Origin: Halorubrum sp. BOL3-1
GTDB lineage: Archaea > Halobacteriota > Halobacteria > Halobacteriales > Haloferacaceae
DNA length: 64,000 bases
Direction: 5' to 3'
NCBI RefSeq assembly: GCF_004114375.1
Contig: NZ_CP034692.1
Coordinates: 3,162,001 to 3,226,000, forward strand
A program made the translations under genes and the position numbers. Under the pieces are notes generated by a model. That model had not been told where the DNA came from, did no database searches, and worked only from the letters and a program-made list of their open reading frames with translations. Position 1 is the stretch's first letter, and each line of letters opens with the position of its first letter. Shown here piece after piece: positions 49,151-59,740 of the stretch.

Positions 49151-49242
49151 GATGCCTGATTCAGTAGCCGGTAGTTGTCTCTGTGATATAAAATGTTAGC
49201 ACCAATATTAATGTTTAACCTGTTTCGGTAGAAGCTTTGGGC

Positions 49243-51477
49243 GTGTCTCTGTCTGGAACTAAAATCAACGTTGTTTATGTTGACGATGATCTGGATTTTG
49301 CGGAGATGGCTGCCGAATTCGTTGAACGGCACGACGAACGGATCGATGTCCAGACCGCATCAAGTACAAGCGAGGGGCTAGATCGACTCGCTGAGGACGA
49401 GTTCGACTGCGTCGTTTCCGACTACGACATGCCCGAGAAGAATGGGGTTGAGTTCCTAAAAGCCATGCGCGAGTCCCATCCCGAAGTGCCGTTTATTCTC
49501 TTCACCGGGAAGGGTTCCGAGGAGGTGGCCAGTAAGGCTATTTCTGCTGGCGCCACCGATTACCTGCAGAAAGGGCCGGGAACAAGCCAGTATGAGATCC
49601 TGGTAAATCGAATCACGAACGCCGTTGAACAACGTCGTACCCGCAAGGAGGTCGCCAGAACCGAGCAACGTCTCCGGACCATCGCAGAAAACACTACGGA
49701 TGTCCTCTGGATGTTCAGTACCGACTGGGATGAGCTTCTGTTCATCAATTCTCCATACGAGGAGATCTGGGGGCGCTCGATAGACGAACTCCATGAAGAG
49801 CCACGCTCCTTTCTTGAGGGCACCCATCCTGAGGATCGAGACCTCGTCAAGGAGGCCATGGCTCAACTCTCGGCCGGAGAGCCAGTCAATATAGAATACC
49901 GCGTGAATGCCGACGAAGATTACAGCCGCTGGGTATGGGTTCAGGGTCAACCGTTATTTGGAGATGGCGACGAGGTGGGCAAGGTTGTGGGCTATGCCAA
50001 AGATATCACCGAACGTAAAAATCTCAAGACCGACCTCGAATGGTATGAAACCTTGGTTAATTCGTCTGGCGACCCGATGTATATTGCTGATACTGACGGA
50101 TATTTTGAATACGTAAACGAGGCCCTCTGCGAAATAACCGGCTACGAGAAGGAGGCGTTAATTGGGGGGCACGTCCGAAAAATAATGAACGAGGAGAGCC
50201 TCGAATCGGCAGAGAAACTCATTAGATCGCTGTTGTCCTCCGAAAATCAGCGAGGGACGTTTGAAATGGAGGGGATTACGAAGGGCGGGGGTTCGATCCC
50301 GGCTGAGAACCATCTCTCCCTGATATTCAACGGTGGAAAGTTTCAGGGAACCGTTGGCGTCGTGCGGGACATCTCTGAGCGCAAGGACCGCGAACAGAAG
50401 CTTACGGCCCTGAATGACGTTGCGGGCGACCTAATCACGAGCAAGTCGGTTGAACAGGTCTGCGAGCGCACTATCGAAGCCAGCGAGCAAATTCTGGACT
50501 TCGATATGAGTGTCATTGCACTTGAGGACTCAGGGATGCTTTCGCCGGTTGCTGTATCCAAGAACATTCCCCCGGCGGGAATGGCCGATATGTCGGTCAC
50601 ACAAGGGATATCTGGGAAGACCTATCGGACCGGGAAATCGTTCCTCATTAATCGTATGACGGCCCATGAAGACGCCGATCCTCAGGGACCGTACAAGTCG
50701 GCGATTAGTCTTCCAATCGGCGATCATGGAAATTTCCAAGCCGTCGCTACCACTAGTGATGCCTTTGATGAGAAGGATCTGGAACTGGGTGAACTGCTGA
50801 TTAATCACACCGAGAATGCACTGGAACGGCTCGCTCACGAACAGCGCTTACAACGCCAGAACCTGCGACTGGAAAAGTTCGCTAACGTCGTCTCTCACGA
50901 CCTTCGGAATCCACTCAACGTCGCTCAGGGCCGGATCAACATCGCCCGAGAAAACCGTAAGAGCGAGCATCTTGACGCTGCAGCAGATGCGGTCAATCGG
51001 GGCTTTGATCTCATCGACAATTTGTTAGATCTGGCAAGAGCGGAACAAGATATAACCGATACTGAAGATGTAGCAGTGGCTGAACTCGCCGAAGACTGTT
51101 GGAACACGGTCGAAACAGGCAATGCGGAGATTGCGGTCGATATCGGGTCAATAGTTGAAGCAAATCGAAGCCGACTTCGCCAACTCTTTGAGAATCTGTT
51201 CCGCAATTCGGTTGAACATGGCGGTGAAAATATAACTGTTGAGGTCGGGTCACTGCCAGATGGATTCTACGTAGCGGATACCGGCCCCGGGATTCCCGTG
51301 GAGAAGCGAGAGGACGTCTTCGAAGAGGGATACTCGGAGAGCCAGGACGGCACCGGATTCGGATTAGCCATCGTCAAGCAGATTGTAGAGGCATACGGGT
51401 GGAAAATTCGAATTACCGATGGGCAGGAAGGTGGGGCGCGATTTGAAATCTTCGGGGTCAACGACGTTTCTGAATAG
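49243..51477 (+). CDS. Hybrid sensor kinase: receiver, two PAS, GAF, HisKA and HATPase
   Basis: The 744-residue protein starts at GTG, which is consistent with a TATA-like TTTAAC about 28 bp upstream; a TTG two codons earlier is possible. The receiver (1-125) has an intact SDY motif (Asp about 59) and TGKGSEE. PAS domains lie at about 138-260 and 265-385, and GAF at about 395-535. H-box VVSHDLRNPLNV is at about 549, N-box FRNSVEHGG and G-boxes DTGPGIP/GTGFGLA at about 650-715. It is soluble, with its own receiver at the N terminus, the typical haloarchaeal layout. Its output partner is unknown. Confidence 0.9.
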   Translation: MSLSGTKINVVYVDDDLDFAEMAAEFVERHDERIDVQTASSTSEGLDRLAEDEFDCVVSDYDMPEKNGVEFLKAMRESHPEVPFILFTGKGSEEVASKAISAGATDYLQKGPGTSQYEILVNRITNAVEQRRTRKEVARTEQRLRTIAENTTDVLWMFSTDWDELLFINSPYEEIWGRSIDELHEEPRSFLEGTHPEDRDLVKEAMAQLSAGEPVNIEYRVNADEDYSRWVWVQGQPLFGDGDEVGKVVGYAKDITERKNLKTDLEWYETLVNSSGDPMYIADTDGYFEYVNEALCEITGYEKEALIGGHVRKIMNEESLESAEKLIRSLLSSENQRGTFEMEGITKGGGSIPAENHLSLIFNGGKFQGTVGVVRDISERKDREQKLTALNDVAGDLITSKSVEQVCERTIEASEQILDFDMSVIALEDSGMLSPVAVSKNIPPAGMADMSVTQGISGKTYRTGKSFLINRMTAHEDADPQGPYKSAISLPIGDHGNFQAVATTSDAFDEKDLELGELLINHTENALERLAHEQRLQRQNLRLEKFANVVSHDLRNPLNVAQGRINIARENRKSEHLDAAADAVNRGFDLIDNLLDLARAEQDITDTEDVAVAELAEDCWNTVETGNAEIAVDIGSIVEANRSRLRQLFENLFRNSVEHGGENITVEVGSLPDGFYVADTGPGIPVEKREDVFEEGYSESQDGTGFGLAIVKQIVEAYGWKIRITDGQEGGARFEIFGVNDVSE

Positions 51478-52019: not shown

Positions 52020-53138
52020 CTATCTAGCAATAGTATTAATGCCCGTAATCTCAAAACAACCGCCGTCTTCCGGTCCTTCACACACTGAAACGTTCCACCC
52101 ATGAGCGGAAGCGATATGTTTCACTCGTGCTAATCCGAGTCCATTTCGTCTCTTAAGATCGGACATCCCTGCCCGGAAAATGTCTTCTCGGCTGTCTTCG
52201 GGAATTCCGGGGCCGTCATCCAGAACGTAGAACCCATCGGGCAGCGGTCCGACCTCAACCGTTATGTTTGCCGGTCCGTGATCAACCGCGTTGACATATA
52301 GCTCTCGAAATAGTCCGAGCGTTCTTTCGCGGTCAGCAACAATTTCCTTCGAAACCAGCGTCCCCTCCTTGATTACATGGAGACTTGCTTTCTTTGTATT
52401 ACTTTGGCTCCAAGCCGAACGAGCGACTTCTGTGAGTTCTAATGGTTCCCGTGAATCGACCGGCTGGCCCTGCTGTATCAGCACGTTCAGATCGTCAAGA
52501 TATGAATCGATACGATTAAGAGCTCTAGTAATTTTTGATACCGGTTCATTCCGGTTATTTTCTTGGCTATCGTCCTTATTTGTCTCGGTGGAGATGTACT
52601 GAGTATACCCCTTTGCCACGTTTAATGGGCTCCGCAAATCATGAGAGAGCACTCGCCTGACTTCTTCGAGTCGCTCTCGCTCCCACTCTAACTCCGCCTG
52701 ACAGCTTTCAAACTCGGATTCAGTGACGGTATGTCCCCGAGAACGAGAGGGATCGATATCGTTTCGGATGCGATCTACAACTTGATCGACTGCGTCTGGA
52801 TAATCTCGCTGAACGTATGCTGAGACGCCAGCGTTGAGTGCCGACGCTGCGATTGACTCTGAGCCATCTTTCACGAATAACACGAGCGGAACGGCCGACC
52901 CCATACCTTGGCTAGTTCGTCGCTGGCTGAATTCAATGCCATCTATTCCGGGAAGGTGGTAAGCGCTGACAATATAGTCGGGAAGTTTCTCTGCGTCCGT
53001 AAGAAACGACAATGCCGCTTCGGCGTCGGGTTCAGCGATGGGGTCAACTGTAACGTCTGACCGTGTGAGAACCTCCATTATTGCGGATTGATCCCCGGCA
53101 TCAATACCAACGTGTAACAGAGACAGTGGCGAACTCAT
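52020..53138 (-). CDS. Histidine kinase with a phospho-dead receiver
   Basis: The 372-residue protein has a receiver fold at about 1-125 in which the phospho-acceptor motif reads IVSAYHLPGIDG (Ala 59 where Asp is expected). The acidic pair reads VGIDAGD and the conserved Lys is Arg (YVQRDYP), so the receiver cannot be phosphorylated in the usual way. The H-box VLSHDLRSPLNVAKGY is intact near 165, with N-box ELYVNAVDHGP and G-boxes DDGPGIP and NGLGLARV. It lacks PAS or GAF domains. It is divergent from the CheF-receiver gene across 280 bp, suggesting joint control. Confidence 0.88.
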   Translation of the reverse strand: MSSPLSLLHVGIDAGDQSAIMEVLTRSDVTVDPIAEPDAEAALSFLTDAEKLPDYIVSAYHLPGIDGIEFSQRRTSQGMGSAVPLVLFVKDGSESIAASALNAGVSAYVQRDYPDAVDQVVDRIRNDIDPSRSRGHTVTESEFESCQAELEWERERLEEVRRVLSHDLRSPLNVAKGYTQYISTETNKDDSQENNRNEPVSKITRALNRIDSYLDDLNVLIQQGQPVDSREPLELTEVARSAWSQSNTKKASLHVIKEGTLVSKEIVADRERTLGLFRELYVNAVDHGPANITVEVGPLPDGFYVLDDGPGIPEDSREDIFRAGMSDLKRRNGLGLARVKHIASAHGWNVSVCEGPEDGGCFEITGINTIAR

Positions 53139-53416
53139 TGTACGCAGAAGTAGGAACTACCAATTAATAGGTTTTTAAATCCGGTAGCTCAATATACTTG
53201 TTGCTAGCACAGCACAATTATTTTTAATGATCATTTATAAACTATATTTGATATATTCTCCAGAATCTCAGCTGGTAACACGGGGCTGATTTTAGCCGGT
53301 TAGCAGACTGGTTCGCCAATATATCTAAGTAAATTGGTATTATCTATTGTAGATGAACTCAATGAGCTAAAACGGTGGAAACAATCATAATCTTGCTATA
53401 CATATCTGCTGTTACG

Positions 53417-54463
53417 ATGTCGAGATCTATCGTTGCGGACTTCCACGCCGAAGTCGAATTAACCGACTCGACGGAACACAGATCTCTTCAATCTCGGATC
53501 GTCGTAAGTGATGAACAGATTGGGGTAGCGATAGACGGAACAAAACGGACGATAGAAATTTCAAGTATCTTTGATATCGTTCAAGGGGTCTCGCAGATAC
53601 GGAGTGTTGAATCAACTGAAACAGTCACTCTCGCGTTTTGGAGTGACAGTCAACGAGAGACGATCTCGATCAGTACAGATATAGAGATATTAGTTAAATT
53701 CCAGAACGTTCTTTACAAGAAGCTACTGAACGAGACCGAAGTCGTCGATACGTATCGAAGTCGGACGGGAGAAAAAAAAGCGAACCACACGTACCGAATT
53801 TTTGTCACCAACTCGCAGATTCGTCTTCAGTCTAGTAAAACTGATGATCAGATTATTATCGATCGGAACGACATAATCAAATTCAAAACTCCTCCAAGCT
53901 CCCCGACGAGTGGCGACCAAGAGCCGGCGGCCGTGATCTATTCGGAGACTGACAATCAGATTAATAAAACAACTGTTTGTCTGCCGTCTTTTCGAACACT
54001 CAATCTATTCGTGCGCTACCTACGGGCAGACCTGCTATCTACGGACAAAATCGGCACTACGGCCGGAGCCAAGAATACAATCGAAATATTGCTTATTGAT
54101 GATAATCAACATGATATAGAGATGGCGGAAGTATTCCTGAAGGAGCAATCCGATCGATTTTCTTTCACATCTGTGTTGAGCGCATCAGATGGGCTTGATG
54201 AGCTCAACCAAGTAGATGATCCTGCCGAGTCGTTTGATTGCATTGTGAGCGACTATCAGATGCCTGGGACAGATGGCCTTGAACTTCTCAATAAAATCCG
54301 GGAACGCTATCAGAACTTACCATTCATCCTATATACGGGGCAAGGGAGCAAGGAGATAATGAAGCAGGCAGTATTGGACGACGCGACTGATTATGTAAAA
54401 AAAGGTGTTGGCCGCGAACAGTACGAGATTCTTTCCGGACGTATTCGGAAAGCTGTTCGCTAG
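53417..54463 (+). CDS. CheF-like taxis protein fused to a receiver domain
   Basis: The product has 348 residues when started at MSRSIVADF; fourteen more codons are possible upstream. Residues about 1-215 match archaeal CheF (SIVADFHAEVEL, GTKRTIEISSIFDIVQGV, LPSFRTLNLFVRYLRADLL). CheF links the Che system to the archaellum motor. Residues about 219-340 are a receiver with an intact Asp near 279 (FDCIVSDYQMPGTDGLELL), acidic pair LLIDDNQ and YVKKG Lys. The receiver is closest to those of the neighbouring kinases. A protein joining CheF to its own phosphorylatable input could bypass CheY. It is divergent from the dead-receiver kinase. Confidence 0.82.
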   Translation: MSRSIVADFHAEVELTDSTEHRSLQSRIVVSDEQIGVAIDGTKRTIEISSIFDIVQGVSQIRSVESTETVTLAFWSDSQRETISISTDIEILVKFQNVLYKKLLNETEVVDTYRSRTGEKKANHTYRIFVTNSQIRLQSSKTDDQIIIDRNDIIKFKTPPSSPTSGDQEPAAVIYSETDNQINKTTVCLPSFRTLNLFVRYLRADLLSTDKIGTTAGAKNTIEILLIDDNQHDIEMAEVFLKEQSDRFSFTSVLSASDGLDELNQVDDPAESFDCIVSDYQMPGTDGLELLNKIRERYQNLPFILYTGQGSKEIMKQAVLDDATDYVKKGVGREQYEILSGRIRKAVR

Positions 54464-56965: not shown

Positions 56966-59740
56966 TTATACGGCAAACTCGATACCGGTGATCTCAAACC
57001 GTGCTCCGCCGGTCTCATCCTCAGTAACACAGATATCCCAGCCATGTGCCTTGGCAACCTCTTTGGCGATGTTGAGCCCGAAACCCGTACCGTCGTTGGT
57101 GGTCGAATAGCCCGCCTCAAATACCTGTTCTCGCTTCTCTTCTGGGATGCCGGGGCCGTTATCCGCAATATAAAAACCGTCGTCGAGGCCGCCGACCGTG
57201 ATGGTTATATCGTCGCCTCCGTGTTCGACCGCATTTCGGATCAGGTTCTCCAGTAGCTGCTGGAATCGGCTACTATCGGCGCGAATCGTCCGGTCGGTCT
57301 CGGTTACGAGTGTCGCGTTGTTCGTCTCAACGTTCTGCCAGCACCCTTCAACCGTCTCGGATAGACCAACCGATTCGGTCTCGCTGACTGTCTCGCCTTC
57401 ACGGGCGAGCGTGAGCAAGTCATCGATCAACGTGAGGCTCCGGTCCACGGCACTAGCTGCGTCGTCCAAATGTTCGCTGTCGCAGTCCTCGCGAGCCAGC
57501 TCTAGCCGACCCTCCACGACGTTCAGTGGATTCCGGAGATCGTGGGAGACGACATTAGAGAACTCGTTGAGGCGCTCGTTCTGGCGTTCCAACTCCTGCT
57601 CTCGCTGCTTGCGGTCGGAGATATCGCGCCCGACGCCGATAAGACCGATTACGTCCCCCTCCAAACCGGTGAGTCGGTCTCCAGTGAACTCGTAGGGGAT
57701 CCGCTCACCGTCAGCTGTCAAGATATCAGCCTCCACGATGGCTTCTCCCGTTGAAATCGTCTCCTCAATGGCGTTGGCAACCGTCTCCTGCTCGTCTTCG
57801 GGGAATAATTCGGTCGCGTACATCTCTGCGAGTTCGTCACGCGGGTAGCCAGTCACTCTCGAAGCTCGATGATTCCACCGCCGAAGATTACCATCTACTC
57901 CGATCACGTAGAACATGTCGCTAAGAGTGTCGAGAGCCTGCTCGATGAACGCCTGTTCTTTTTTGAGTTCGCGTTCATGCTCAACCGCATCAAGTGCAGT
58001 CGTCATGTGAGTGGCAACTATCTTTGCGAGGGACACGTCCGTCTCGTCGAAGGCGTCCGGCTCGGATGAGCCGATAACGAGGACCCCATGATCGGCGAGG
58101 GGGAAGATAATCTCACTCCGAATGTCTGTATCGGGGTTGAGGCAGTCGGCTGCGGTCGAGATATCCCTATAAATTTGTGGCTCTCCCGTCTCGAAGGCCC
58201 TTCCTGCGATTCCTTCGCCGGGCGTAAATATCGGCGGTTCACCAACGATTTCTTCAGCCTGTTCAGTCCACGCGATGGGTACCAGTCCCTCTTCCTCCTC
58301 GTCATAGAGGTGAACGCCATTATTCGGCATGTCGAGGATTTCGGTGACTGCCTCGGTTGCGATGTCAGCGACCGTCTCGGGCGCCGTCGCTTCCATGAGT
58401 TCGTTCGTTGCCTGATGGAGCTTCGTGATGGCCCGTTCGCGCTCGCTCCGCTCAGAGATATCCGTATAACACGCATACAACCCATCAGCACGGCTATCGT
58501 CAAGCCCATAGGGAATCATTTGGAGCAGGAAGGTACGGGGGCCATCAGCCGTAATTCGGTCTACCTCTGCGACGAACGTGTTGCCGGTATTCGCCCGCTC
58601 TCGGAACTCCTCGTGCCTGTTCAGGTCCTTCTCGGGAACGAGAAATTCGGATGGATCCTTACCGACAACCGCTTCGGTGTCGTAGTTGAACACTTCCTCA
58701 AAGGCGTTGTTGACGGCGGTCACGATGTGAGTATCGCCTCCGTCACGAATCTCGGCAGCGACCATCGGACCGGGGGCATTTTCGAAGAGTGCCCGTCGTT
58801 GATCGCGTTCTGTACGAAGTTGGTCTTGGACTTCGATGGAGTGGAACGCATGGGCGATGTCGTCTCCGATTTCGGCCAGCAGGTTGCGTTCGTCTTCATC
58901 GAACGCATTTGGTTGCTCGGCGTAGACGCCGAGTACTCCGTAGAATGTGTCTTCGTATTCGAGTGGGACGGCAGCGAGTGACTGGTAGCCACGTTCGAGT
59001 GCGTCTTCACGCCACGGTTCGAAATCGGGGTCCTGTTGTACGTTTTGGGAGACCGCGATACGTCTCTCTTGTAGTGCCGTGCCACCCGGACCCTGGCCGG
59101 TCTCGGTATCGTCGGCAGTGACAGTGATGTCGTCAAGATAGTCTTTACCGATGCCCGCCCACGCCCGCGGTTCGAGACGTTGGGTCTTGGAATCCATCTC
59201 GCCAATCCATGTAAACAGATACGGCTCAGATTCGCTGATGATCTCACAAACACGGGCTTCGGCATTCGAACGGGACTTCGAACGTATAAGCGCTTGATTT
59301 ATTTCACTACGAATGGTGCGGATACGCCAGAGATTCACCGCGCGTCGAGAAGAGCGATACTGGTTGATGGCGTTGGTGATCCGGTTTGCAAGAAGTTCGT
59401 ACTGTTCGGTCCCGGAGCCTTTCTGAAGGTAATCGGTAGCACCAGCGGTGATCGCATCGCTGGCGACTTCCTCGCTACCCTTGCCCGTATAGAGAATGAA
59501 CGGCAGGTCAGGATAGTCCTCACGAACGGCCTCAAGAAACTCGATGCCATCTTGACCCGGCATATCATAATCGGAGACGATACAGTCGTACTCGTCAGCG
59601 GCGAGCTGATCAAGTCCGTCGCTAGCGCTCGTTGCGGTACCTACCTGAAACTGCTCGTTTTTACGTTCGAGGAACGTTGTAACTAGCTCTATAAAATCCG
59701 GCTCGTCATCAACGTGGAGAATCCGGACTTCATTTACCAT
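56966..59740 (-). CDS. Large hybrid kinase: receiver, GAF, PAS, GAF, PAS, HisKA and HATPase
   Basis: In this 924-residue protein the receiver spans 1-125, with Asp 57 in CIVSDYDMPGQDGIEFL and YTGKGSEEVASDA. GAF 1 is at about 145-300 (YQSLAAVPLEYEDTFYGVLG) and a PAS at about 315-435. GAF 2 lies at about 440-590 (VHLYDEEEEGLVPIAWTEQ) and the second PAS at about 600-720. The H-box SNVVSHDLRNPLNVVEG is near 735, with N-box LIRNAVEHGG and G-boxes NGPGIP and GTGFGLNIAKEV. It is soluble. Its C terminus closely matches the scrap at 38755, indicating duplication of kinases on this replicon. Signals and partners are unknown. Confidence 0.92.
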   Translation of the reverse strand: MVNEVRILHVDDEPDFIELVTTFLERKNEQFQVGTATSASDGLDQLAADEYDCIVSDYDMPGQDGIEFLEAVREDYPDLPFILYTGKGSEEVASDAITAGATDYLQKGSGTEQYELLANRITNAINQYRSSRRAVNLWRIRTIRSEINQALIRSKSRSNAEARVCEIISESEPYLFTWIGEMDSKTQRLEPRAWAGIGKDYLDDITVTADDTETGQGPGGTALQERRIAVSQNVQQDPDFEPWREDALERGYQSLAAVPLEYEDTFYGVLGVYAEQPNAFDEDERNLLAEIGDDIAHAFHSIEVQDQLRTERDQRRALFENAPGPMVAAEIRDGGDTHIVTAVNNAFEEVFNYDTEAVVGKDPSEFLVPEKDLNRHEEFRERANTGNTFVAEVDRITADGPRTFLLQMIPYGLDDSRADGLYACYTDISERSERERAITKLHQATNELMEATAPETVADIATEAVTEILDMPNNGVHLYDEEEEGLVPIAWTEQAEEIVGEPPIFTPGEGIAGRAFETGEPQIYRDISTAADCLNPDTDIRSEIIFPLADHGVLVIGSSEPDAFDETDVSLAKIVATHMTTALDAVEHERELKKEQAFIEQALDTLSDMFYVIGVDGNLRRWNHRASRVTGYPRDELAEMYATELFPEDEQETVANAIEETISTGEAIVEADILTADGERIPYEFTGDRLTGLEGDVIGLIGVGRDISDRKQREQELERQNERLNEFSNVVSHDLRNPLNVVEGRLELAREDCDSEHLDDAASAVDRSLTLIDDLLTLAREGETVSETESVGLSETVEGCWQNVETNNATLVTETDRTIRADSSRFQQLLENLIRNAVEHGGDDITITVGGLDDGFYIADNGPGIPEEKREQVFEAGYSTTNDGTGFGLNIAKEVAKAHGWDICVTEDETGGARFEITGIEFAV

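Follow-up and report, generated by a model that had tools for sequence, protein, structure and literature searches.

Can the archaellum motor be reached by a signal that passes through neither CheA nor CheY? As far as is known, sensing is coupled to the motor through CheA, CheY and CheF (PMC9126983), and the question is raised by a locus of Halorubrum sp. BOL3-1 in which a CheF-like protein carries a receiver domain of its own and is encoded divergently from a histidine kinase whose receiver lacks the phospho-acceptor. The locus lies in a stretch of 64,000 nucleotides (contig NZ_CP034692.1, positions 3,162,001 to 3,226,000), here called the window, and coordinates are positions within it unless another sequence is named. 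The original prediction was that the kinase phosphorylates the fused receiver directly while its own dead receiver serves for docking or gating, which would give a two-protein route to the motor without CheY. A search of the open-access literature turned up no paper that describes a CheF joined to a receiver. The fusion would be what is new here; two-component systems and CheF adaptors are known.

The CheF-receiver fusion

The gene at 53417-54463 (+ strand) encodes a protein of 348 amino acids, referred to below as CheF-REC, in which both halves are recognised by their Pfam profiles. PF04283 (CheF-arch, formerly DUF439) matches with 55.7 bits (E 7.6e-15, cut-off 25) over profile positions 2-214 of 218 and places the double-PH, motor-docking module at residues 6-204 (53432-54028), the meaning of this domain being taken from PMC9126983. 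PF00072 matches with 65.6 bits (E 5.3e-18) and places the receiver at residues 224-335 (54086-54421). The expectation of a CheF joined to its own intact receiver, with an acceptor at about residue 279, is borne out by these matches. The predicted phospho-acceptor is Asp279 (54251-54253), and the acidic pair, the phospho-acceptor Asp, the Thr and the Lys (DD/D/T/K) are kept in all 14 aligned homologs. Translation likely starts at the ATG at 53417. A GTG start at 53375 was considered and rejected: the extra stretch is conserved as DNA but is interrupted by a stop codon in one of the genomes (G369), and it adjoins a conserved non-coding element.

Neither half is close to the corresponding parts of the Che system. 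The PH part shares 18% identity with CheF1 of the same genome, which scores 224 bits against PF04283 compared with 55.7 bits for the fusion. The receiver is closest to the receivers of haloarchaeal REC-kinases (37-50% identity), and CheY-type receivers gave a weak match or none. A sequence search of solved structures with the fusion PH profile gave no match, so that the link to CheF structures runs through canonical CheF. AlphaFold models, made from an input limited to two sequences, reached a pLDDT of 37 for the fusion and 39 for the kinase, too low for the models to be used.

The larger difference from CheF lies behind the PH part. All of the canonical haloarchaeal CheFs examined (about 25) have a tail of 68-94 amino acids at this point, and the tail of CheF1 from the same genome matches the crystallised C-terminal domain of CheF (7od9 and 7ovp). 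This domain forms the CheF dimer and binds CheY-P, while the two PH domains probably dock on the ArlCDE ring (PMC9126983). In every one of the 14 aligned fusions the C-terminal domain is missing and the receiver stands in its position. Judged from the sequences, CheF-REC has swapped the CheY-P binding site for a receiver of its own and is a CheF-derived regulator rather than a full CheF, the PH module being present and the CheY-P-binding, dimerising domain absent. Since the binding tail is missing, CheY would not be usable by the fusion in the known way.

Protein and profile searches, of the kind proposed with the original prediction, found the fusion in 14 haloarchaeal genomes belonging to Halorubrum, Natronomonas and others (G000, which is the genome of the window, G005, G077, G078, G120, G134, G142, G155, G209, G216, G230, G369, G405 and G435), with the kinase family beside it in six. 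G142 (Halorubrum sp. PV6, with a second contig that corresponds to plasmid NZ_CP030065) has two copies, G405 is represented by a contig of Natronomonas sp. LUM.42, and a further copy, beside these 14 genomes, is present on the megaplasmid of Halorubrum ezzemoulense Fb21. A class-wide search mostly sampled the same genomes again. The fusions are separated from all other CheFs by a clear gap in profile score (at least 164 bits versus at most 123 bits), and full-length homologs in other genomes match with E values from 1e-70 to 1e-121. The recurrence of full-length homologs, and of the kinase with its Ala in six genomes, indicates that the architecture is not due to chance. Two members are named only 'response regulator' in public annotation, and the link of CheF-REC to motility has probably been missed so far for this reason. 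The G134 homolog is split into two open reading frames which overlap by 4 bases, one for the PH part and one for the receiver (locus L046, 7645-8298 and 8295-8714); this could reflect a split of the gene, a frameshift or a mistake in the assembly.

The divergent kinase and its pseudo-receiver

The gene at 52020-53138 (- strand) encodes a histidine kinase of 372 amino acids with orthologs in five other genomes. Matches to PF00512 and PF02518 identify the HisKA and HATPase_c domains, the latter at 52044-52346 with 43.9 bits. The kinase motifs are all present, namely the DHp phospho-acceptor His166 in SHDLRSPLN (52641-52643), N283, DDGPGIP and GLGLA, and the His, the Asn and DDGxGI are invariant in 6/6 family members.

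The N-terminal domain, residues 8-125 (52764-53117), matches PF00072 weakly, scoring 24 bits in the window copy, below the cut-off of 30.2, and 32.6 bits in the G230 ortholog. It reads 'YIVSAYHLP' where the phospho-acceptor should be, with Ala59 (52962-52964) in place of the Asp; in addition the acidic pair is lost, the Thr is replaced by Val and the Lys by Arg. In the alignment of the six orthologs the same losses are found in each. An intact catalytic core behind a receiver with Ala for Asp, as first read from the window copy, is shared by all six. The dN/dS of the pseudo-receiver is about 0.21-0.28, as low as that of the catalytic part, compared with at least 0.6 for the linker, and the domain is under purifying selection. 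There is no PAS or GAF domain in the kinase, which leaves the pseudo-receiver as the only candidate input domain.

The Ala by itself is unremarkable because dead receivers are common in archaeal REC-kinases; it is the conservation and the purifying selection that are remarkable. About 10-15% of archaeal receivers are without the Asp (PMC12632262), and up to 40% of archaeal REC-kinases may be non-phosphorylatable according to the archaeal two-component census (PMC5847659). In the genome of the window about a third of the REC-kinases lack the receiver Asp. Other receivers in this genome have Ala or Glu for Asp (G000:C3:757550, which is L112, and L113 and L114), and pseudo-receivers are common in the organism.

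On either side of the pair lies the gene for a large histidine kinase of REC-PAS/GAF type whose receiver is intact, hk1 at 49237-51477 (+ strand) and hk2 at 56966-59740 (- strand). Elsewhere in the window, at about 16-35 kb, there are NosL-, SCO- and TauE/SafE-like genes, a gene for a periplasmic repeat protein, ABC transporter genes and transposase genes, a set which resembles a nitrous oxide reductase cluster (family names assigned by eye).

Conserved pairing of kinase and fusion

Six genomes (G000, G405, G369, G230, G216 and G005) have an ortholog of the kinase gene in divergent orientation to CheF-REC. When 392 genomes of the order were searched with a profile of the kinase, the five paired kinases in the sample scored 622-697 bits and the next best match 229 bits, and no member of the family was found away from CheF-REC in these genomes. 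That the two genes belong together, as had been supposed from their arrangement in the window, is thus upheld by all six family members. The kinase and the fusion also diverge in parallel (r = 0.93, from 15 non-independent pairs).

The divergent intergenic region shared by the two genes (53139-53416) is 278 bp long with a G+C content of 35%. It contains a conserved element, GAAACAATCAT (53378-53388, + strand), roughly 39 nt before the start codon of CheF-REC, which recurs with at most one mismatch in all six kinase-paired loci (the window, L087, L088, L089, L090 and L039) to give the 11-base consensus (G/A)AAACA(A/C)TCAT. The only exact copy in the genome is the one at this locus. In the orphan fusions of Halorubrum its place is taken by ordinary TATA-like boxes. 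The element is a probable promoter core and may serve a particular TFB or activator.

Away from the six paired loci the neighbours of CheF-REC are more varied. Unrelated kinases flank it in G077, G209, G435 and Hrr. ezzemoulense. The G077 kinase (locus L044, 4885-7743) is a protein of 952 amino acids with GAF/PAS domains and Gly at the receiver Asp site; its gene is divergent from CheF-REC and overlaps the longest open reading frame of the latter. The kinase in G435 has Ala at the Asp site and lies about 1.5-2 kb away, and the kinase in G209 has no receiver. On the Hrr. ezzemoulense Fb21 megaplasmid (NZ_CP034941.1, 474229-482822) the fusion is divergent from a REC-PAS-histidine kinase with an intact Asp, and two genes for methyl-accepting chemotaxis proteins lie downstream of CheF-REC. 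The Halorubrum orphans lie between a mutS-like gene and uvrA with no adjacent kinase. The recurrent neighbour of CheF-REC is therefore a histidine kinase and not specifically one with a dead receiver, since the intact-receiver kinase, the receiver-less kinase and the orphans indicate that loss of the kinase Asp is not needed for the arrangement. A dead receiver as the general mark of kinases adjacent to CheF-REC was considered and dropped: it is dead in three unrelated families (the main one, G077 and G435), intact in Hrr. ezzemoulense and missing in G209. Given that about a third of the REC-kinases in the genome of the window are without the Asp, there is no significant enrichment of dead receivers beside CheF-REC.

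Origin of the pair

A tree of the PH part gives a single origin for the fusion (support 98/92), adjoining the CheF2 branch. The window copy groups with the copies from Natronomonas rather than with those from Halorubrum, the genus to which it belongs. The G+C content of the pair is 45-51%, compared with 69-71% in the che regions of the same genome, and IS-like genes lie around it. The grouping, the low G+C and the IS-like genes together argue that the pair, kinase included, was probably acquired horizontally.

A proposed second input to the motor and its alternatives

Our preferred reading is that the pair forms a two-component branch, from the kinase to CheF-REC and from there to the archaellum motor, lying beside the Che pathway; we give this about an even chance. 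A fuller version, which we hold more tentatively and somewhat below even, is that a dedicated HisKA kinase, gated by its pseudo-receiver as the only input, phosphorylates the receiver built into CheF and controls the archaellum independently of CheA and CheY, as a second, independent entry to the motor that has spread horizontally in haloarchaea. In this scheme a CheF2-like protein would have supplied the PH domains of the fusion, which are thought to dock on the ArlCDE ring, and a receiver of the sensor-kinase type stands in place of the CheY-P-binding, dimer-forming tail. After autophosphorylation on His166 the kinase would transfer the phosphoryl group to Asp279 in CheF-REC, with no competition from its dead receiver. 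A partner or ligand probably binds to this domain, which would gate the kinase via the short helical segment that links it to the DHp helix. Once phosphorylated, the fused receiver would probably dimerise and so replace the lost dimer tail of CheF, the seating of the PH domain on the motor would change, and switching or stopping would be biased in parallel to CheA-CheY-CheF1.

The absence of CheY from such a route has to be qualified. The missing CheY-P-binding tail supports a two-protein route that does not use CheY, but the route would not replace the usual one: cheW, cheB, cheA, cheR, a gene for a HEAT protein and cheF1 are found together in the same genome (read by eye), with two canonical CheFs in total. 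The presence of its own CheA/CheR/CheB cluster and of both canonical CheFs points to an extra input to the motor and not to a substitute. A point against the preferred reading is that deletion of CheF2, the canonical type nearest to the fusion, gave only a weak phenotype in Hbt. salinarum (PMC2666748).

CheF-REC might instead be phosphorylated by CheA or by another REC-kinase, hk1 or hk2 for example, with the adjacent kinase acting elsewhere or as a phosphatase. The existence of orphan fusions would fit this, as would the fact that, of the receivers in its own genome, the one most similar to the fused receiver is that of hk2 (49.6%). Further kinases, non-orthologous to each other, are also found within 6 kb in 4/6 paired loci. 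We nevertheless think this unlikely, given the exclusive linkage of the kinase family to CheF-REC and the parallel divergence of the two proteins, and the CheY-type receivers are no more than distant relatives of the fused one.

A similarly low probability is given to the fusion being a brake or decoy, in which the tail-less protein would fill docking sites on the motor and block switching driven by CheY-P/CheF1, phosphorylation setting the occupancy. When the C-terminal domain is removed from CheF in Hfx. volcanii, the protein still takes up the polar position of intact CheF but the motility rings are smaller, and no rings form when the C-terminus is blocked (PMC9126983); the loss of this domain from every aligned fusion is consistent with such a role. 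The receiver is strictly conserved and intact, however, which implies active control by phosphorylation.

The PH module could also act on a target other than the archaellum, the pair then being an ordinary two-component system with another output. Docking on the motor is inferred from membership of the CheF family, as the PH part is so divergent, and no che or arl genes were seen beside the six paired loci, which lie outside the che and arl clusters. Against this, ArlCE and ArlD are encoded in 14/14 carriers, canonical CheFs are also present in the carriers to which the CheF profile was applied, and the chemotaxis receptor genes adjoin the Hrr. ezzemoulense copy; another target is, in our judgement, improbable to about the same degree as the two preceding alternatives. 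Lastly, it is very improbable that the locus is a decaying, functionless fragment of horizontally acquired DNA, as its G+C content, the IS-like genes, the Natronomonas grouping and the split homolog in G134 might suggest, because both genes are intact, the dN/dS of their domains is mostly 0.1-0.4 and the catalytic residues are all conserved where expected.

Comparison with known systems

CheF-REC has the two N-terminal PH domains of CheF, matches almost the entire Pfam profile and nests beside the CheF2 branch, but has its own receiver where CheF has the dimerising, CheY-P-binding C-terminal domain and is encoded outside the che cluster. In common with the CheA-CheY-CheF1-ArlCDE pathway, the archaellum motor is likely the final target, whereas CheA would have its counterpart in a kinase of the HisKA type, and free CheY in a fused receiver unlike CheY. 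The haloarchaeal response regulators described in the tables and passages of the two-component census (REC-HalX, REC-HalOD and stand-alone REC; PMC5847659) have what is predicted for CheF-REC as well, a phosphorylatable receiver with the protein-protein output typical of archaea; the output of CheF-REC would be a motor-adaptor module and its receiver is C-terminal. CheF-REC itself is absent from those tables and passages.

The kinase has the order of domains given there for archaeal REC-HisK kinases, an N-terminal receiver followed by HisKA/HATPase, and many of those kinases are also without the phospho-acceptor Asp. It differs from the kinases covered there in having no PAS/GAF, so that the dead receiver is the only input, and in belonging to a family that is always beside one type of response regulator. 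Pseudo-receivers that control the kinase they belong to are known (reviewed in PMC12632262), as in ShkA of Caulobacter (PMC7010744). Like the window kinase, ShkA is a histidine kinase that contains a receiver devoid of catalytic residues, and a gating role is plausible for the domain in the window kinase; the pseudo-receiver of ShkA is central and binds c-di-GMP, whereas that of the window kinase is N-terminal.

If the preferred reading is correct, a derivative of CheF that has a receiver and a kinase to itself would open another way to the archaellum motor, and CheF-REC would be a natural relative of the engineered CheY:CheF-CTD fusion construct (PMC9126983). The authors of a review from 2025 were not aware of functional work on any pseudo-receiver from archaea (PMC12632262), and the kinase offers a defined case for such domains. 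Together the two genes would provide a clean two-gene system for finding how phosphorylation at CheF moves the motor.
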